A stretch of DNA of 64,000 bases, from assembly GCA_012515235.1 (NCBI GenBank), contig JAAYYU010000188.1:21232-85231 (forward strand), read 5' to 3'. Position 1 is the stretch's first letter. Each line of letters begins with the position of its first letter. Positions 14,454 to 26,939 of the stretch are shown here, in pieces. Source of the stretch: Candidatus Anammoximicrobium sp. (GTDB lineage: Bacteria > Planctomycetota > Planctomycetia > Pirellulales > Pirellulaceae). Below the pieces are notes generated by a model. The model saw nothing but the letters and a program-made list of their open reading frames with translations. It was not told where the DNA came from and did not search any database. Position numbers and translations under genes: made by a program.

Positions 14454-15908
14454 TCAGCTTCCTTCGCAAAACTGCAACGAATAGAGGTCGGCGTCCTGCA
14501 GTTCAAACCGCAGGCGGACCGTCTGGCCGGCGAGTTTGCTGACGTCCGCGCCGGACTTCCAGTTCACCGTGTGCTCGATGCGGTCGCCGATGATCTCCGG
14601 GCAGTCTGCCAAGGAAAAACCCTCGATCGGTTTCCCGTCAGCCGTCTGCAACTCGACGCGCAGCCCGCCGGCCGCCGATGTCGAGTAATTGATGTTCAGC
14701 CGATTGCCGGAAAAGACGAACGGCTTGGTGATCATCTGCCCGCCGCCATACGGGCCGGACACGGAAACAAAGCCGTCCGGCCGCAGCGAGTATCGCCGCA
14801 CGTGATTGCTGGGGTATCCGGAGTGGTGCTTCACGTACAGCGACAATTCCCGCTCGCCCGTCTGGACGATGCCGCGAGCCGCGTAGTTGGCGCGCGACGT
14901 CCAGTTCTCCAGGTCGAATCCCGGCCGGACGTAGGCTTCCAGGAACGTACGCTTGAAATCGACCCCGCCGCGGGCCGAAGCCAGCAGGATGTCGGTACAG
15001 TCGTTGGCGTAGTTCCACTCCTTCGGCGTGCCGATACGGAAAGCCTCCTCGTCGGTCACCACCCGCCGCCCCGGCAGGAATCGCGTGGGCAGCCCCAAGT
15101 ACAGATGGGGCGCACGCACGTACGGGTCGATTTGGTTCGTATACAGGTGCTGCCGCGGCTTGCCGTCCAGCTCCAAGTCAACCGGCTCGGTCCAGTGAAT
15201 GAAGTCCTGCGAAGTCGTGCGGGCGATCCACCGCACGCTATCGCGGAACACGCGGAAGTAGCACACGTACTGCTTTTCGCTCTCCGACCAGAACGCGTTG
15301 TTCTGCGAATCGAAGGCCCCCTTGGTGATCACCGGCTCCGGTTGCAGTTCCCGCCAGTGGATCCCGTCGGGTGAGGCAAAGGCGATCAGGCCAGGAGCGC
15401 CGGTTCCGCCGAGTGCTTTGTAACGCTGGTCGGCCGGGGCGTCTGGGTTCGCGTCGATGAAGGGCGCAAAGTTGTGACAGCCCCGATGCCGCGCCAGCAC
15501 GACGTTGTTGTCCTTCGTCCCCTGCACCTCGAACAAGCCCAGCTTGGGCCGCGTCCAGTTGACGCCGTCGCGACTCTCGGCGACGCAGGTGACCTCCACG
15601 TCCAGCGTATGCCGCGCGGCCGGCATGCCCCGGTAGTAAAACCGGAACAGGTCGCCGTCCTTCAGCACCGTCTCGTAGCCGCAGTACAGTCCTTCCCACG
15701 GCTGGTCGAACTTCAGCACAATCTCCCGCGGTTGCGGGGCATGCAATTCGAGCCGGGCTCCCTCCAGCCGGTCGATCAGCAGTTGATCGACAAACAACTC
15801 GCGCCGGGCCCCGATGTTGATTTCTCCCTCGGCCGCAGCGGCCGAAACCAGCCGCGCCACGCACCAGCCAGCCAGCAGACCCACCATCAACTTGTTTGCT
15901 CGCGACAT
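14454..15908 (-). CDS. Secreted glycosidase-like five-bladed propeller protein
   Basis: A 484-aa exported protein. ATG 15908 (MSRANKLMVGLLAGWCVARL) has AAAGGAG eight bases upstream. The 585-aa ORF-track version starts in unrelated upstream sequence. After the signal peptide comes 'GARRELFVDQLLIDRLEGAR' and a run of propeller-like strands typical of GH32/GH43-type or DUF-style planctomycete sugar hydrolases ('VAESRDGVNWTRPKLG', 'IAFASPDGIHWRELQPEP', 'IARTTSQDFIHWTEPVDLEL'). A beta-sandwich-like C-terminus follows ('IEHTVNWKSGADVSKLAG'). Catalytic acids cannot be assigned by eye. The expected role is periplasmic or extracellular polysaccharide handling. The next gene upstream belongs to the damaged island. 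Confidence 0.75.
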   Translation of the reverse strand: MSRANKLMVGLLAGWCVARLVSAAAAEGEINIGARRELFVDQLLIDRLEGARLELHAPQPREIVLKFDQPWEGLYCGYETVLKDGDLFRFYYRGMPAARHTLDVEVTCVAESRDGVNWTRPKLGLFEVQGTKDNNVVLARHRGCHNFAPFIDANPDAPADQRYKALGGTGAPGLIAFASPDGIHWRELQPEPVITKGAFDSQNNAFWSESEKQYVCYFRVFRDSVRWIARTTSQDFIHWTEPVDLELDGKPRQHLYTNQIDPYVRAPHLYLGLPTRFLPGRRVVTDEEAFRIGTPKEWNYANDCTDILLASARGGVDFKRTFLEAYVRPGFDLENWTSRANYAARGIVQTGERELSLYVKHHSGYPSNHVRRYSLRPDGFVSVSGPYGGGQMITKPFVFSGNRLNINYSTSAAGGLRVELQTADGKPIEGFSLADCPEIIGDRIEHTVNWKSGADVSKLAGQTVRLRFELQDADLYSLQFCEGS

Positions 15909-16005
15909 GAAAGGGACTCCTTTGTTTTCGGTGTTCTGCAAAGTCATCGTCTGGGTCTCCGGGACAGGCACAGTTCCCGGCTCAACCTTTACCCGCGAGC
16001 ATTTT

Positions 16006-16066
16006 GGAGTGCGGCGCCTTGTCGCCGCTTTGGCTCGATGCCGATGCGACGACCGGCCCTGTGTGT
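16006..16066. mobile_element. GGAGTGCGGCGCC repeat element, partial copy
   Basis: The 35 bases from 16006 (GGAGTGCGGCGCCTTGTCGC...) match the start of the element at 52389 with one difference in that stretch, then diverge. No closing inverted end is seen, so this copy is partial. Its far side abuts the truncated reading frame ending at 16067. Confidence 0.65.
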
Positions 16067-16138
16067 TCAGATGCGTAGCCCCTTGACGGTGTTGTCGAGT
16101 TCGCCGTCCACAACTAGGTCGGTAATGCGCCATGCCAT
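16067..16138 (-). pseudogene. Truncated N-terminal fragment of a conserved planctomycete-type protein
   Basis: An ATG at 16138 opens a 23-codon frame, MAWRITDLVVDGELDNTVKG followed by LRI and stop. The pattern 'WRITDLVVxGELDNxxKG' resembles, from memory, the N-terminus of a small hypothetical protein family common in planctomycetes, in which the chain continues well past this point. Here the frame runs into the GGAGTGCGGCGCC repeat element and stops, so the rest of the gene is missing. The identification is tentative because only about 20 residues remain. Confidence 0.4.
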
Positions 16139-16217
16139 ACGGGTATCGTACCCACAGACCACCACCAGCGAAAGAAGCCCGACGTCGTCCGACTCCGCAC
16201 AAGGGAGCCAAGCCCGC

Positions 16218-17339
16218 TCACGCCTTTGCGGTTTGGTAAGCCGTAAGGTGTTCCCTCTCGAACACGGCCGATGGCGGCCCGAACAAGAATCCCCCTTCGA
16301 CGCTCCATTCAAGTTCGATAGTGTTTTCTTCGAAGGTGGCCTTTGCAGCAGATCGAAGATGAAGTTCCCCCGGTCGGTTCACTGTTCGGCTTTTCCTGCA
16401 CGACGTCAACACGACGGTCCAACCCGCATCGAGAAAGTCGGCCAGAACTTCACGATCGGGTAATGCATCCCTCTCGCCTGCCGAAACCGCCGCTACCTTG
16501 GCCTCGGCGTCGTCGCCGCCAAGCCTGCACAAGTCCGTGAAATGGTTCTTGAGGGAACCGTGGTGCGGAACCTTGATCGATTGGAAGTGGGCTGCAGTGG
16601 ATCGTTCCTGAGCGTGGTCGCGCCAGACCTTCAGCGCCCGCGAGATACCCGCGGACGAGGCATCGGCCGCGAGTAGGACATTGAATTTCATGTTTCCATC
16701 GTTCACCGCAAGAACTACGACGAGCGACAACTCGTTTGCCTCCAATTTGGCATTCGGGTTCTTTGCGTAAGCCTCGATACTTGCCTCCGTTAGCCGACGT
16801 TTCGCCTTCGCGTCCGGTCCGATAGGCACGAAATCAATCCGTCCACTACTGCCCTTTGGCGAGACGGAAGGACGTTCGGCATCCAACTCACGCCAGTCAA
16901 GATCTCCCTGTTCGTCCCACGCTCGGAGTGCCTGCTGAAGCCGCCGGTACTCGCGTTGCCCCGGACGTTTCGGCTGCACTAGCAGTTCCCTGATCTGCTG
17001 CGCCGTCAAACCGCTGTCGAAGTAAAACCCCACAGACTTCCCATCGCTCTCGATGAAATGCCTGAGAACATCGTGCATTCCCAGAAAGTGATCGTAGTCA
17101 GGATGCGTTTGGAAGACGAGCGCCAGAGTTTGGATTTGTTTCTCCTGGACGAAATCGAAGAAGCGACTTCGCACTCCGCCGGTCTTAGGCAAGTAACAGT
17201 CGACGAGCACCCAACGTCCGTCGGGCAGGCGAACGAGGATCGTATCGCCGTGGCCACAGGCAAACAAGTAGACCTCGATACGGCTCCGGTCAGAACTCGA
17301 TCGGACCGGTGACTTTTTTTCTTTCGCAGGGTTCGTCAT
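16218..17339 (-). CDS. ComEC-type metallo-beta-lactamase-fold hydrolase (soluble)
   Basis: A 373-aa protein, third gene of a compact three-gene cassette. ATG 17339 (MTNPAKEKKSPVRSSSDRSR) has GGAAG about seven bases upstream and overlaps the preceding gene by 50 bases. The MBL metal-binding motif is THPDYDH, the HxDxDH-like form of ComEC/Rec2-related hydrolases, preceded by 'VLVDCYLPKTGG' and followed by 'VLLAADASS' and SIKVPHHGSLKNHF. The last is the typical 'LKVPHHGS' of this family. There is no signal peptide or membrane segment, so it should be cytoplasmic, unlike true ComEC. The substrate is probably a nucleic acid or phosphoester, by analogy. Base composition looks visibly less GC-rich than the neighbours. 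Confidence 0.85.
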   Translation of the reverse strand: MTNPAKEKKSPVRSSSDRSRIEVYLFACGHGDTILVRLPDGRWVLVDCYLPKTGGVRSRFFDFVQEKQIQTLALVFQTHPDYDHFLGMHDVLRHFIESDGKSVGFYFDSGLTAQQIRELLVQPKRPGQREYRRLQQALRAWDEQGDLDWRELDAERPSVSPKGSSGRIDFVPIGPDAKAKRRLTEASIEAYAKNPNAKLEANELSLVVVLAVNDGNMKFNVLLAADASSAGISRALKVWRDHAQERSTAAHFQSIKVPHHGSLKNHFTDLCRLGGDDAEAKVAAVSAGERDALPDREVLADFLDAGWTVVLTSCRKSRTVNRPGELHLRSAAKATFEENTIELEWSVEGGFLFGPPSAVFEREHLTAYQTAKA

Positions 17340-18018
17340 CGAGTTCTTCCAATGGCTCCGAATCATCTCGTCCATCGACGGAACCGTGCACAACGTGAAC
17401 GTACACGGCAAGGCAGTCACCCTTGTTGGGGAGTTTTCCGTCGGTGAACTGGCTTCGGGTGTACGTGTGCTCGACAACGTCGTCGTCCGTGTCGAATACG
17501 ACGGTGGCGGTGTCGCCGTGGATATGTTCGACGACGCCTTCGTAGGACTCGATCATTTTCAGATGGCCGTGCTTTCGGTCCAGCAACAGAGCGAGGGTCG
17601 CGTCGATGGCCTCGTTTCGCCCCTTCAAGATGTCCAACAAACTGTCATTCTGAGCACGCAACTTGTCCAGTTCGGAGAGCAGTTGGTCGTATCGTTGCGT
17701 CTCTCGTGCGGCATTTCTCCGCGCTTCCGCAACTCGCGACTGCAACAACTGGTTCTCCAAGCGAAGTTGGCTGCACCGCTGCTCCAACTCCAACAACGTG
17801 TTCTTCTCGTCTCGGACAGTCAGCCCTTTTTCACGTCGGGCGGGAGACGTCTCCCCTTCGGCCCGGCGCATGGACTCTACGGCCGTCCTAAACTCGGCAA
17901 GTCGTTTGAACAGGTCGGTCTTCCCAGAACCGCCGTGACTCAAGAACAGCAAAGGACGGCCCGGTGCCTGCAGGAACGCGGCCTGCGCTTCGTCCAGAAG
18001 TTCCGATAGCTCAGCCAT
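17290..18018 (-). CDS. Coiled-coil protein with small beta domain (cassette gene 2)
   Basis: A 242-aa protein I do not recognise. The N-terminus contains LFLSHGGSGKTDLF, which looks like a Walker A loop except that the first Gly/Ala is Ser. No Walker B follows, so ATP binding is doubtful. Residues about 75-130 are a strong coiled coil ('LELEQRCSQLRLENQLLQSR'). The C-terminal ~90 residues contain 'YEGVVEHIHGDTATVVFD' and KGDCLAVYV, the pattern of a small beta-barrel. DUF3006-type small proteins with a similar feel are known beside ComEC-like MBL hydrolases; that resemblance is only an impression. It overlaps the upstream gene by 8 bases and the MBL gene by 50, so the three are co-translated. 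Confidence 0.7.
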   Translation of the reverse strand: MAELSELLDEAQAAFLQAPGRPLLFLSHGGSGKTDLFKRLAEFRTAVESMRRAEGETSPARREKGLTVRDEKNTLLELEQRCSQLRLENQLLQSRVAEARRNAARETQRYDQLLSELDKLRAQNDSLLDILKGRNEAIDATLALLLDRKHGHLKMIESYEGVVEHIHGDTATVVFDTDDDVVEHTYTRSQFTDGKLPNKGDCLAVYVHVVHGSVDGRDDSEPLEELDDEPCERKKVTGPIEF

Positions 18019-18778
18019 TTTCCACCTCGGACTCGTTGTCGTGTGTCGTCAAGAGCCGCTTCTTTGCAGCGTCAAGCCGGAGCATCAGCAAGTCAATGTC
18101 GGATTCATCGCACTCCAATTCAAAACTCTCCAGCCCGGATTGCGGAAAGGGGAGCGGGATGTCCTCCCCGAAGAAGATCCGCAGGAAGGCAGTCTGAGCT
18201 TCCGTTCCTTTGGAGTAGCGTATCTTGAGCCGCACGAACGGGGTATCCACCCGCTCATTGCGGGAAGAGGCAAGCCGCTCTTCCACAATCTCAAAATCCA
18301 ATTCTTCCAAGCAAGCTGCCGTAGCGGAATTGAGCCGCAGCGACCGAGTTCTCAGCGCTTCGGTAAACAATTGTTCCGCAACAAGGGCAGCCTTTTTCTC
18401 AACCTGTTCCCGGAATTGCTCTTTGGCAGCCCCTTTCAGATCCTTCAACCGGTCGCCGGAAATCATTCTCGTGAACATTGTAACGACAGCTTCACTGCTT
18501 CCCATGTTCACACGCGCCGAAAGGTGGCGGCGTATCTCGTCGAGGACTTCCTTCGTCTCTTCTGGGGACAACTCTTGGCCCTGCTGCCTGGATGACAACT
18601 CAGCACGAAATACCTCTACGTCGCCGACAAACTGCGCTGACCGCTTGCGTCCCAGGAAAATGAGAAACTTGCCGCGATCTCGCAGTTCCGCCAGCGCGCG
18701 TACCCCTGCCTCAAATTGTTCAAGCGGAACTTCAGGAAGTTCCACTTTATCCGCCTTCTTGTCCGAAGTCTTTGCCAC
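18011..18778 (-). CDS. Unknown 255-aa protein (cassette gene 1)
   Basis: First gene of the three-gene cassette, with a GTG start at 18778 and GGAAA about nine bases upstream. The N-terminal ~100 residues are charged and helical. A segment 'VVTMFTRMISGDRLKDLKGA' lies in mid-protein. A mixed region with 'FVRLKIRYSKGTEAQTAFLR' and a C-terminal acidic/helical segment ('DESDIDLLMLRLDAAKKRL') complete it. No signal peptide or membrane helix is present, so it is probably cytoplasmic. I recognise no family. The overlapping, same-strand arrangement with the coiled-coil and MBL genes implies a shared function. A predicted promoter lies 50-80 bases upstream. Confidence 0.7.
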   Translation of the reverse strand: MAKTSDKKADKVELPEVPLEQFEAGVRALAELRDRGKFLIFLGRKRSAQFVGDVEVFRAELSSRQQGQELSPEETKEVLDEIRRHLSARVNMGSSEAVVTMFTRMISGDRLKDLKGAAKEQFREQVEKKAALVAEQLFTEALRTRSLRLNSATAACLEELDFEIVEERLASSRNERVDTPFVRLKIRYSKGTEAQTAFLRIFFGEDIPLPFPQSGLESFELECDESDIDLLMLRLDAAKKRLLTTHDNESEVENG

Positions 18779-18828
18779 GACGATGTTTCCGTAATATCAA
18801 CGTGTGAATTCCGACCGTCCAAACCGAC

Positions 18829-18857
18829 AGTATATTTTAACCATCGGCCGAAGACAA
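18829..18857 (-). promoter_or_regulatory. Predicted sigma-70-type promoter of the MBL cassette
   Basis: On the minus strand TTGTCT and TATACT are separated by exactly 17 bases, in an AT-rich stretch unusual for this window. The -10 matches consensus at 5 of 6 positions and the -35 at 4 of 6. It lies about 50 bases upstream of the GTG start at 18778. Confidence 0.6.
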
Positions 18858-18894
18858 TCGAGTACTGCTGCCGTATTCATCGGGATAATCTAGC

Positions 18895-19062
18895 CGAAGG
18901 CCATTTGTGGTCCGAGCCGCCCGTTTGGCGTCCCAGATCGCTTCCGGACCGGGCGGAAGATAGGATCGTGCGGCACAGGCCGCGCAAGCCTCGCAACGAA
19001 CGTACAGCGGTGAGGAACCACGTCTCGCGATACGCCAGCGCGACGATCACGACGCCCGTTGC
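18895..19062 (-). pseudogene. DUF4276-like remnant
   Basis: Directly after the end of the ATPase remnant, the minus strand encodes ATGVVIVALAYRETWFLTAV followed by RSLRGLRG. This matches my memory of the mid-region of DUF4276 proteins ('VVLAxREFExWFLAAxESLRGxRG'). A second frame then reads 'LPPGPEAIWDAKRAA', like the next conserved piece ('xPEAIRDAKGWL'). So the gene is frameshifted, and its first ~100 residues are missing. DUF4276 genes usually follow an AAA ATPase of the type found just upstream, which supports the call. Confidence 0.55.
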
Positions 19063-19960
19063 ACTCGAAGAGGTTGAGCTGCCGTTCGTGGCTCACGTCG
19101 CTGAGGGTGCTGCTGTCCGGCGCCAAGTGGTTCTGACGCAACAGTTGTCCGGGCGTGAACAGCTTGTCGCGCAACATACTTCGGCCAGCCTCGTCGAGGT
19201 GGCCGATCCGCGTCAATCCATCCTGGTTGTCGACTGCAAGGATGGATTCGGTCGGGATATCCGAATTGTCCAGCAGGTCGGGGCTGTGGCTGGTGACCAG
19301 GATCTGACAGTGTTGGGAACGTTCGCGGAGGGAGGACAGCAGCACGCCTGCGGCTGCGGGATGCAGGGCATCTCCGGCTCCTCCAGGCCGATCAGGCTCG
19401 GTGGCAGGCGGCCCTCGCGAGCGGCCTTGGCCTGAAAGACGGCCAGCAAGATGCCGAAGGCGCGGAGGGCGCCATCCGACATGTCGCCGGCGAGGAAACG
19501 CCAGGGATGCTCCTGGCCCTTGACCGACTGCCGGAATTCGATGGTCTCCTGGGAACCCAGCGTCTTGGTCTCTGCGTCCGACACGCCCGGTACGATGCGC
19601 GACAGGTTAACCGTCACGCGTTGGCGGATGTCGGCCGAGAATTGCTGCAGCACGCTGGCAGCGTTGCTGCCGTCTCGGCGGAGTCGGTCGCCGGGATCGG
19701 ACTTCTGCATCGCGCCGATCTCGCGTGGATTCAGATTGTAGACTTTGATCCGTGACAACGCGTCCAACACGGGCCGCAATTCGGGGACGCTCGATGCGGC
19801 CACCAGGAACAGACGGTCGGGAAGCGTTGCGGGCAGGCGGCGGCCCGCTGCGGCACCGGCGCTTGTGCGGTTCGGCACCGCAAACGGGCGAGGACTCGAC
19901 GGGACCAGCGTCAGTTGCGATAATGATTGTGAAGTGCGTAGTTTGCCTCGTTCGAGGGAG
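19063..19960 (-). pseudogene. AAA-family ATPase remnant (5' truncated and frameshifted)
   Basis: The minus strand encodes the C-terminal half of a RecF/AAA_21-type ATPase. Pieces include 'DRLFLVAASSVPELRPVLDA', 'QHPWRFLAGDMSDGALRAFG'-like text, the Walker B region SLIGLEEPE, then in another frame HPAAAGVLLSSLRER and ILVTSHSPDLLDN. The frame changes at about 19370: restoring one A (EEPEN-ALHP) rejoins the two frames, so a single-base deletion broke it. The N-terminal half with Walker A is absent. The remnant ends where the plus-strand Rpn-like gene begins (19970). The intact protein would have been a DNA-associated ATPase partnered with DUF4276. Confidence 0.75.
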
Positions 19961-19969
19961 CGGACCACG

Positions 19970-20938
19970 ATGAGCGAATTCGATAGCCCGTGGAAGGAAG
20001 CGCTGGAGGTTTTCTTGGAGCCGTTTGTCCAGTTCTTCTACCCCGACGTGCATGCCGACGTGGATTGGAGCCGGGGGTACGAGAGTCTGGACAAGGAGTT
20101 GCAGCAGATCGTGCGCGAGGGCGAGTTGGGGCCGCGGTTGGCGGACAAGTTGTTCAAAGTTTTCCCGAAGGACGGCGGGGAGTTGTGGCTGCTGGTCCAC
20201 GTCGAGGTCCAGCATCAGCGGGACGACCAGTTTGGCGAGCGGATGTACATCTACAATTACCGCATCTACGACCGGTTTCGCCGGGGCGTTGTCAGTCTGG
20301 CAGTGCTGGGAGACGAACACCGCCGCTGGCGGCCACGGCAATTCGAGTTTCGCCGTTGGGGATTCTCGTTGCGAATGCGGTTCCCCATGGTCAAACTGTT
20401 GGACTACCGCTCGCGGATGAGCGAGTTGGAGGCGAACCGGAACCCGTTTGCCGCCGTTGTGCTGGCGCACTTGAAGACCCTGGAAACCCGACGCCTGCCG
20501 GCGGAGCGTTGCCGGTGGAAGTTGCGGCTGGTCAAAGGGTTGTTTGAGCGCGGGTTGACCGCCGAGGAAATTCGACAACTGTTTCGGCTGATCGACTGGC
20601 TCATGGACCTGCCGCCGGAATTGGAACAGGAGTTTGAGGAACAACTGTACGCTTTCGAGGAGGAACGGAAAATGCCGTACATCACAAGCGTCGAACGACG
20701 GGCCCGCGAAAAGGGACGTCAGGAGGGACGCCAGGAGGGACGTCAGGAGGGCGAGATTAGTGGCCTGCAGGAGGGAATCGAATTGGCGCTGGAGCTGAAG
20801 TTCGGATCCGACGGCTTGGCGTTGATGCCGCTGGTGCGGCAAGTTCAGCAGCCGGACGTCTTGCGCAGCGTTCGGCAAGCGCTGCGAACCGCGGACACGC
20901 CGGAACCGATTCGGGCGCTGCTGTCGCAACCAGAATGA
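19970..20938 (+). CDS. Rpn-family PD-(D/E)XK nuclease / putative transposase
   Basis: A 322-aa protein starting at ATG 19970 with GAGGGAG about ten bases upstream. The ORF-track start at 19745 lies in the ATPase remnant. The sequence has the Rpn/PDDEXK_2 pattern: 'YESLDKELQQIVREGELG' near residue 33, a 'LADKLFKVFPKDGGELWLLV' strand, HVEVQHQRDDQFGERMYIYN (ExQ metal-site motif), and YNYRIYDRF. The C-terminus has three RQEG repeats from 12-bp tandem DNA units. Rpn proteins are linked to RecA-independent recombination and, for some, to phage defence. Its start abuts the 5'-truncated ATPase, so its arrival may have caused that truncation. Mobility is not proven: no terminal repeats are seen. Confidence 0.85.
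   Translation: MSEFDSPWKEALEVFLEPFVQFFYPDVHADVDWSRGYESLDKELQQIVREGELGPRLADKLFKVFPKDGGELWLLVHVEVQHQRDDQFGERMYIYNYRIYDRFRRGVVSLAVLGDEHRRWRPRQFEFRRWGFSLRMRFPMVKLLDYRSRMSELEANRNPFAAVVLAHLKTLETRRLPAERCRWKLRLVKGLFERGLTAEEIRQLFRLIDWLMDLPPELEQEFEEQLYAFEEERKMPYITSVERRAREKGRQEGRQEGRQEGEISGLQEGIELALELKFGSDGLALMPLVRQVQQPDVLRSVRQALRTADTPEPIRALLSQPE
20714..20749 (+). repeat. 12-bp tandem repeat within the Rpn gene
   Basis: GGACGTCAGGAG, GGACGCCAGGAG and GGACGTCAGGAG in tandem encode RQEG units. Similar Arg/Glu/Gly-rich tails are common in this protein family. Copy number changes would keep the reading frame. Confidence 0.8.
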
Positions 20939-24959: not shown

Positions 24960-26939
24960 TCAGAAGCGGTCCAAGGTGTCGATCCAGCGGACCAGTTCGG
25001 CTCGCTCTTGGTCGTCCAGCGGGCGCGGCTCGCCGGGGCGTTTCCGCAGGATGATCGGGTACTTCATGTCCTGCAGCCGCTTGACCTGCTCCTCGATGCG
25101 TTGGCCGCCAACGGGTTGTTTTTCGGCCACCGTCAGCATCAGCGCCAGGCGTTCAATCGGATCGTTGGCGGGGACTTGGATCCGGCCGGGCAGGACGGTG
25201 TCGGTGGCCGCGGCCGCGCGGATCAGGCTGCGATGCGAAAAAGCTGTCAGCAATGCCATGGCGCCGCCCGTTTGACGGCCGCAAGCCACAATCCGTGTGC
25301 GGTCGATGTGGTACTTGGCGATCACCTCGTCCAGCGTCTTGCGGAGGTAGTCGCTTTCGGTGGGCAGCCAGCGTTGCGGGTCGGCCGACTGCGGGACGAG
25401 AAGGATCAAGTCGTTTGCCTGGCAGACGCCTTTCCAGGTTTCGATCAGCTGCGCACGGTCGACGTCGCCCGGTTCGTGCAGCCACATCAGCAGCCCGTAG
25501 GCGACCTCCGGGTGATAGTTGTCGGGCACGTAGGCAAAGCACTCGTTCGTTTCTTCAGGCAGTTTGACGTTCACTGCGCCGACGGGCGGCCGCTGGGCGG
25601 CCGACGCCTGGACGGGCCTGCGGGCGGCCGGCAGGTGTTGCGGGATCGCCGTCGGCAGGCTTGCCAATTCCAGCTCGAATTCCCGTGTCTCGGCTGCGCG
25701 TTGGACGGCCGCCTTGATTCGTTGTTTGGGTTCGTAGTTGCCCAGGATTTCCCAGGCCGAAGCCACGTCCGCGACCGGTTTGTCCGACAATCGGACCAAG
25801 CGGTCTTCGGCCCGAAGGCCGGCTTTCGCCGCGGGGCTGCCGGGGTAGACGTAGCGAACCACCACGCCGGGCTTGGCGGCGGGCGAGCGATCGGGGAGCA
25901 AGCCGAGGAACGGGGTTTCGTACGGTTCCAGCCGGCCAGCCAACTCGACCACGATTTCCACGCGCCGCGCGCCGCGCAGAACGACCATGTTCAGTTGCTC
26001 GCCGGCATATCGCGGTCCCAGGGCGTGCCGCAACTGGGTTTGCCGCGCGATCTTGATTCCGGCGACCTCGACGATGCGATCACCGGCCTGCAGGCCCGCT
26101 TTCCTGGCAGGCGACTTGGGCTGGACCGCAGCGATCTCCGGCGGATCGGCGTAGATGTCGTTGCCCTGGAGCGTGATTCCCAGCAGGCCGGGATACAGCT
26201 CTTCGCCGCGTTTCAACTTGTCCAGATGCCGCAAGACATCGACCAGCGGAATCGCGAAACCGATCCCCGAATCGTACCATTCGGCGCCGGCGACTTCGTC
26301 CTGCTGCTGCGGGGACAGCGGCGCGAGCACGCCCAGCACGCGGCCGCGGATGTCGATCAGCGGGCCGCCATAGTTGTTCGGCGAGACCTTGGCGTCCGTC
26401 TGGATCGCCTTGCCCCAGATGCGGCTGGTGGCGCTGAGGATGCCCACGGAAACATTCGGCAACGGCTGGTCGAACGTGCGCCCGACGGCGATGGTCCATT
26501 GGCCGACGGCCATCTCTTCGCGGGGCACGACCTGGGGAACGGTCAGCAGTTCGTCGCTGGCGACCTTCAACAGCACGAGCATGCGACTGCGGTCGCGAGC
26601 CACGATCTGGGCCGTCGCCCGCCGGCCGCTGGGCAACGTGACCAGGATCGATGACGGCTGTTGAATGAAGTTGAACGCGCTGGAGATGATGTAGCCGTCG
26701 GGCGACACGGCCAGGCCGGTGGTCGCGCCGGTGCCGACCAGCACCCGTTCGACGCGTTCCAAGCCGCCGATGGTCTCGATCCGCAACACGGACGGCGCGA
26801 TCTTGGCGACCGCGGCTTTGATGGCTTGCTCTTCCAAGGCGACCAGGTCGTCTTGGACCGCGGGCGCGGACGGAGGCCAGAGCAGGGAGATGAGCCAGAG
26901 GGCGGGGGCGAAACGAAGGCTGCATCGCGTGTGGATCAT
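24960..26939 (-). CDS. HtrA-like pseudoprotease fused to a pseudo-hydrolase domain
   Basis: A 659-aa exported protein: signal peptide (about 1-28), trypsin-like domain (about 30-235), two PDZ domains (about 240-400) and an alpha/beta-hydrolase-like C-terminus (about 440-659). The protease triad looks lost. The His position reads SPDGYIISSAFNF with no histidine, the Asp position reads DRSRMLVLLKV, and the Ser position reads SPNNYGGPL (Tyr for Ser). The hydrolase nucleophile elbow, normally GxSxG, reads ACGRQTGGAMA with Gln. It may act as a binding or scaffolding protein for denatured envelope proteins or for the active HtrA. It is the last gene of the long operon. Confidence 0.85.
   Translation of the reverse strand: MIHTRCSLRFAPALWLISLLWPPSAPAVQDDLVALEEQAIKAAVAKIAPSVLRIETIGGLERVERVLVGTGATTGLAVSPDGYIISSAFNFIQQPSSILVTLPSGRRATAQIVARDRSRMLVLLKVASDELLTVPQVVPREEMAVGQWTIAVGRTFDQPLPNVSVGILSATSRIWGKAIQTDAKVSPNNYGGPLIDIRGRVLGVLAPLSPQQQDEVAGAEWYDSGIGFAIPLVDVLRHLDKLKRGEELYPGLLGITLQGNDIYADPPEIAAVQPKSPARKAGLQAGDRIVEVAGIKIARQTQLRHALGPRYAGEQLNMVVLRGARRVEIVVELAGRLEPYETPFLGLLPDRSPAAKPGVVVRYVYPGSPAAKAGLRAEDRLVRLSDKPVADVASAWEILGNYEPKQRIKAAVQRAAETREFELELASLPTAIPQHLPAARRPVQASAAQRPPVGAVNVKLPEETNECFAYVPDNYHPEVAYGLLMWLHEPGDVDRAQLIETWKGVCQANDLILLVPQSADPQRWLPTESDYLRKTLDEVIAKYHIDRTRIVACGRQTGGAMALLTAFSHRSLIRAAAATDTVLPGRIQVPANDPIERLALMLTVAEKQPVGGQRIEEQVKRLQDMKYPIILRKRPGEPRPLDDQERAELVRWIDTLDRF

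Follow-up and report, generated by a model that had tools for sequence, protein, structure and literature searches.

The locus described here raises the question of whether three small overlapping genes, the last of which resembles an immune nuclease, form a defence system of an undescribed kind, and if so how such an enzyme might be controlled.

Organisation of the cassette

The three genes lie head to tail on the minus strand at 16218-18778 of the window (the whole stretch of 64,000 nucleotides that was analysed), as determined from the ORF listing and translations, with overlaps of 8 bp between genes 1 and 2 and 50 bp between genes 2 and 3 (Table 1). This arrangement agrees with that given in an initial sequence-only reading of this DNA, and the overlaps recur in both of the orthologous cassettes described below. 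The frame of gene 3 stays open up to 17477, beyond the ATG from which we count the protein. The three genes are real: in each of them the differences from the two orthologous cassettes fall at codon position 3 > 1 > 2, indicating purifying selection at the codon level, and the overlaps are retained. The lower GC content noted in the sequence-only reading was confirmed (0.567 for the cassette against 0.648 for the window), placing the cassette in the lowest ~1% of same-size windows. The promoter that had been proposed upstream of gene 1 is present as a sequence, but it is no better than chance, with one site of the TTGTCT-17-TATACT type found and 0.8 ± 1.0 expected.

Table 1. Features of the cassette and its upstream flank (positions in the window)
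Feature	Position	Strand	Description
Gene 1	18011..18778	-	255 aa from a GTG start; N-terminal domain helical, C-terminal domain of three strands and a helix; predicted fold COMMD-like
C-terminal COMM-like domain of gene 1	18017..18310	-	Three strands, then a long helix (DSSP of the model)
Gene 2	17290..18018	-	242 aa; coiled coil and OB-like beta barrel between a variable N-terminus and a conserved C-terminal tail
Coiled-coil helix of gene 2	17572..17829	-	Residues about 64-149; AlphaFold2 pLDDT mostly above 90
Small beta barrel of gene 2	17398..17550	-	Residues about 157-207; AlphaFold2 model; strongest conserved block
Gene 3	16218..17339	-	373 aa from ATG at 17339; soluble MBL-fold hydrolase of ComEC type, predicted to be the nuclease effector
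THPDYDH	17088..17108	-	MBL metal-site motif, gene 3
AADAS	16656..16670	-	MBL aspartate motif, gene 3
VPHHGS	16554..16571	-	Motif of gene 3; block deleted in the L086 orthologue
TTGTCT-17-TATACT	18829..18857	-	Promoter-like site preceding gene 1; no more frequent than by chance
HEC-01A-type AAA/OLD-like ATPase remnant	18890..19968	-	N-terminus missing, frame broken; defence-type neighbour outside the cassette

Gene wreckage had been reported on both sides of the cassette, and this holds for the upstream side. The truncated ATPase gene directly upstream matches PDLC04178 (HEC-01A) with an E-value of 8.4e-44 over profile positions 141-298 of 399, and its TSHSPDLLD continuation sits in another frame. 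Downstream, the long ORF at 14454-16211 is intact, and nothing there is clearly wreckage. A plus-strand ORF at 19745-20938 appears by eye to be like Rpn/PD-(D/E)XK transposase-like proteins and has no Pfam match at 0.001. We also considered an HtrA-like trypsin/PDZ protein (24960-26939) as a protease missing from the cassette and rejected it as an ordinary separate gene that is not linked to it.

Orthologous cassettes and distribution

Metal-motif patterns searched across 85,462 species identified two complete orthologues of the cassette (L085 and L086), each with the label Planctomycetaceae, in which all three genes occur in the same order with similar overlaps. The successful pattern was derived from a motif-focused alignment in which non-motif positions were masked by X; 8-mer patterns from a single protein gave no match. 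Comparison of L085 with the window cassette by phmmer gave E-values of 1e-67, 1e-51 and 1e-140 for genes 1, 2 and 3, respectively, and gene 1 is 50% identical to its orthologue in L085 and 47% to that in L086. The MBL gene of L086 (L086:7800-8954) exhibits an in-frame loss of about 48 residues that includes the HHGS block, either a genuine deletion or an artefact of the assembly.

Of 297 sampled genomes of the order, one contained gene 1, and of 392 sampled from the phylum, one contained gene 3 (at E 1e-9), in both cases the window's own; in the 392 genomes gene 2 had, beyond itself, weak short local matches, mostly to its coiled coil or to a P-loop-like stretch. These screens were run gene by gene with few candidates scored per genome, so distant members may be missed, and a later profile search recovered some. 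Viral contigs contained ComEC-like relatives or none, and tblastn searches of plasmids gave no window-type relatives of gene 1 or gene 2. In the neighbourhoods of the window, L085 and L086 cassettes we found no intact known defence gene; that of L085 contains a weak NYN/HEC-09 match. The sequence-only reading had pointed to scattered homologues of genes 1 and 2 lacking the MBL gene, or a fixed housekeeping position, as observations that would speak against a defence-type cassette. No such homologue of this subfamily was found, and the position is not fixed: the flanks are unrelated in each of the three genomes, and beyond the cassette the sole similarity is a weak one (25%) between two large proteins of extracellular type. 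We conclude that the three genes form a genuine unit that is conserved, rare and mobile and, within the libraries searched, new.

Gene 3 is nearest to immune MBL nucleases

The THPDYDH and VPHHGS motifs of the last gene had been attributed to ComEC/Rec2-type MBL hydrolases, an assignment borne out by its profile matches, which are to ComEC and defence MBLs. With AADAS, these motifs supply all three elements of the MBL metal site (HxDxDH, D and HHG). The protein matches Pfam Lactamase_B at 3.4e-5, and its best specialised profiles in PADLOC and NCBIfam are LmuA (5.3e-14), Avs1a (2.3e-11), 6A-MBL (5.7e-11) and RTasMBL (2.5e-8), with scores that lie far under the curated cut-offs where such cut-offs exist (43.1 bits against 420 for the Avs1a equivalog and 42.1 bits against 220 for 6A-MBL, NCBIfam NF058524). 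By profile comparison, gene 3 is thus nearest to the immune MBL nucleases Lamassu LmuA, Avs1a and DRT-MBL, and is a predicted nuclease for which DNA is the presumed substrate. Aligned with one another, 11 distant MBLs proved too diverse to serve as a search query.

Predicted folds of genes 1 and 2

The sequence-only reading had assigned genes 1 and 2 to no known family, and we likewise found no convincing match for either in Pfam, NCBIfam, PADLOC or PHROGs, nor any peptidase match, caspase included, in Pfam, NCBIfam or PADLOC. An AlphaFold2 model of gene 1 built from three orthologues (pLDDT 66.8, pTM 0.63) predicts a helical domain followed by a strand-strand-strand-helix arrangement. This C-terminal COMM-like domain contains the ECDESDIDLLMLRL stretch, which is invariant in the orthologue alignment, and has low pLDDT (46-59) over much of its length. 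The COMM-domain topology was noted from the model before the Foldseek search, in which the top PDB match was 9q6a (prob 0.98, E 7.4e-3; next best prob 0.08), an octameric bacterial COMMD-like protein, MBK5214510, from a Flavobacteriaceae bacterium. The whole-chain superposition of this moderate-confidence model on 9q6a is poor (TM 0.31), and the best probability against a viral structure library was 0.33 among the matches listed.

The sequence of gene 1 from a sister locus, L159, matches that of 9q6a (E 2.5e-6), so that two different routes, the model of the window's gene 1 and the sequence of the L159 gene, start at the same operon position and end at a single PDB entry. Comparison by hhalign gave no profile-profile link (probability 0.1%) between the window's gene 1 and either 9q6a or the L159 counterpart, and the Pfam COMM_domain (PF07258) is absent from the gene 1 matches at E<=1 and has no match in the window's genome. 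Gene 1 also contains no Trp at all, and hence lacks the tryptophan that is strictly conserved in eukaryotic COMMDs (PMC10187114). Because a direct sequence link, a Pfam match and the invariant Trp are all missing, we describe gene 1 as COMMD-like at most: judging from the model, it probably resembles the human COMMD ring proteins in fold, and it probably forms a ring or other oligomer.

For the predicted barrel of gene 2, the nearest Foldseek matches were OB-type barrels of the Mop/S1/cold-shock kind, none of them significant. We also considered gene 2 as a P-loop ATPase or ClpB derivative, given that its LSHGGSGKTD stretch produces short local ClpB-like matches (E 0.02-0.15), and rejected this reading, the stretch being absent from both orthologues.

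Related loci with two small genes upstream of an MBL gene

About seven further loci (L087, L157, L158, L159, L164, L172 and L173) have two small genes directly upstream of a more distant MBL gene. L087 and L157 belong to Ignavibacteria and its order, and L158 and L159 to Planctomycetaceae. The L086 genome carries L159 as a second locus, with the order gene 1, gene 2, MBL. The same order is seen on an Adhaeribacter plasmid (L164:4727-7077), beside a recombinase and a DEAD-box helicase, where gene 1 (GDFNPIIFQPAWLA...) is 35% identical to gene 1 of L173. The second genes of these loci also appear by eye to end in small beta-rich domains, and hhalign comparisons of gene 2 across the wider group (E 0.002-0.01, probability 4-15%) are suggestive of homology; gene 1 showed no link across groups by hhalign. 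Since the profile comparison gives a hint, but no more, of homology of gene 2, we claim a shared architecture for the wider loci and homology for the MBL only.

A locus from a distant sister group (L182:4636-6707) contains a COMMD-like gene with 33% identity to gene 1 of L159 (E 1.1e-28) at the head of an overlapping three-gene run, the third gene of which is not an MBL but possibly, by eye, cysteine-peptidase-like. The triad is therefore modular rather than obligatory, and L182 hints that the effector slot may be exchangeable between loci.

Proposed function and alternative explanations

In our view the cassette most likely constitutes an antiviral defence system of a kind not yet described. 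The sequence-only reading had suggested a nucleic-acid-targeting defence or stress cassette not described before; the rarity and coherence of the unit, its unrelated flanks, the immune-like MBL and the broken defence-type ATPase adjoining it all favour this suggestion, but recurrence beside intact known defence genes was not seen. In the mechanism that we propose, gene 3 would be an MBL-fold nuclease effector that is harmless until triggered, and gene 1 a COMMD-like ring or oligomer acting as infection sensor or complex scaffold. Gene 2 would link the two, with the coiled coil attached to the gene 1 oligomer and the OB-like barrel to the nuclease or nucleic acid. Upon infection, this assembly would release or activate the nuclease, and the resulting degradation of DNA would stop the phage or kill the cell. 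As no protease is encoded in the cassette, the simplest reading is that, upon infection, the nuclease is held or activated by a gene 1 oligomer for which gene 2 forms the bridge. That the cassette is a horizontally moving defence-type operon employing this mechanism in full, complex and antiviral role included, we judge to be evenly balanced, and one of the points that weigh against it is that most MBL relatives with an immune role are paired with a protease, whereas this cassette encodes none.

The immune MBLs of HamMAB and canu are DNA-cutting pro-enzymes that are opened by a partner protease, and Avs1a is likewise cut by its protease (PMC12799240). The cassette could be a gated pro-nuclease system of this type (HamMAB, Avs1, MBL-Lamassu or canu) whose protease is supplied elsewhere or has been lost from the locus, the insertions in the MBL serving as cleavage gates. 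Gene 3 is indeed nearest to this enzyme group, its stretch between the THPDYDH and N-x-x-S motifs is longer than in ComEC-type MBLs, and it has extra sequence at plausible gating-insertion places, with Ile115 invariant in the four closest members. However, the second insertion (LTEASIEAY...) is conserved and helical-looking and has no invariant Ile, and a peptidase is lacking not only from genes 1 and 2, by profile match, but also from the three genes of both L085 and L086, so that we regard this explanation as unlikely. A toxin-antitoxin-like cassette for stress or element maintenance, in which the MBL is a toxin restrained by genes 1 and 2 and no phage is sensed, seems to us somewhat less unlikely than that. 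It is consistent with the overlapping genes, their sporadic distribution and the plasmid location of one related locus (L164), and the HHGS block might have been lost from the L086 MBL if the enzyme is costly; against this, the deletion may be an assembly error, and two conserved partners with scaffold-like folds exceed a simple antitoxin. MBL-fold hydrolases have many ordinary roles in the superfamily at large, and the genes might form a metabolic or nucleic-acid housekeeping operon of the lineage. We find this the least probable explanation, given the very few genomes with unrelated flanks and no fixed syntenic position, a GC content lower than that of the surroundings, and nearest profiles that are those of immune MBLs.

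Under defence with COMMD-like control, a broader proposition, doubtful at present, is that the cassette represents a prokaryotic counterpart in immunity of the COMMD/coiled-coil (CCC) arrangement, in which a ring and an adaptor sense infection and control the MBL nuclease without a protease, and the effector gene is exchanged between loci. Animal COMMD proteins are trafficking and immune-signalling scaffolds, and if the proposition is true they would join the eukaryotic immune-related parts that have bacterial defence relatives. So far, immune MBL nucleases have been associated with unlocking proteases, and the cassette suggests another route of control. It also gives a testable functional setting to the bacterial COMMD-like proteins, for which a structure deposition was all that we found.

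Comparison with known systems

A soluble ComEC-like MBL enzyme encoded in a multi-gene cassette is common to the window and to the MBL pro-nucleases of HamMAB, Avs1 and canu (PMC12799240), as well as to the LmuA- and DRT-associated MBLs, and in canu the nuclease gene is likewise the third of three. In contrast to these systems, the cassette encodes no trypsin-like protease, caspase, STAND NTPase, SMC protein, helicase or reverse transcriptase. It differs from AVAST type 1 (Avs1) in its sub-threshold Avs1a score and in having no STAND NTPase gene, and from canu (CanABC) in the absence of the caspase-family CanA, neither gene 1 nor gene 2 having a caspase match. MBL-type Lamassu has the SMC-type ATPase LmuB, which is absent here; gene 2 does contain a coiled coil but has no ATPase domain, and its P-loop-like stretch is not conserved. 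The resemblance of gene 3 to the MBL of the 6A-MBL anti-phage system stops well short of the family's cut-off. A related, 6A-MBL-like enzyme is found on a Burkholderia arboris plasmid (L033:4835-9388) beside what look by eye like a WYL-type regulator and an E2/E1/JAB fusion protein, and this last neighbour has no equivalent in the window cassette.

MBK5214510 (PDB 9q6a, 9q6c and 9q6d) shows no similarity to the window's gene 1 that sequence comparison could detect, but shares with the model of that gene the combination of a helical domain and a COMM-like domain and is the model's best Foldseek match. The eukaryotic COMMD/CCC assembly (Commander) differs from the cassette, in which gene 1 has neither a PF07258 match nor a Trp and a nuclease gene is attached. 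In concept the two are alike: the human CCC complex comprises a COMMD ring stabilised by two coiled-coil proteins (PMC10187114), and the pairing of gene 1 with gene 2 offers a parallel to it that is suggestive only.
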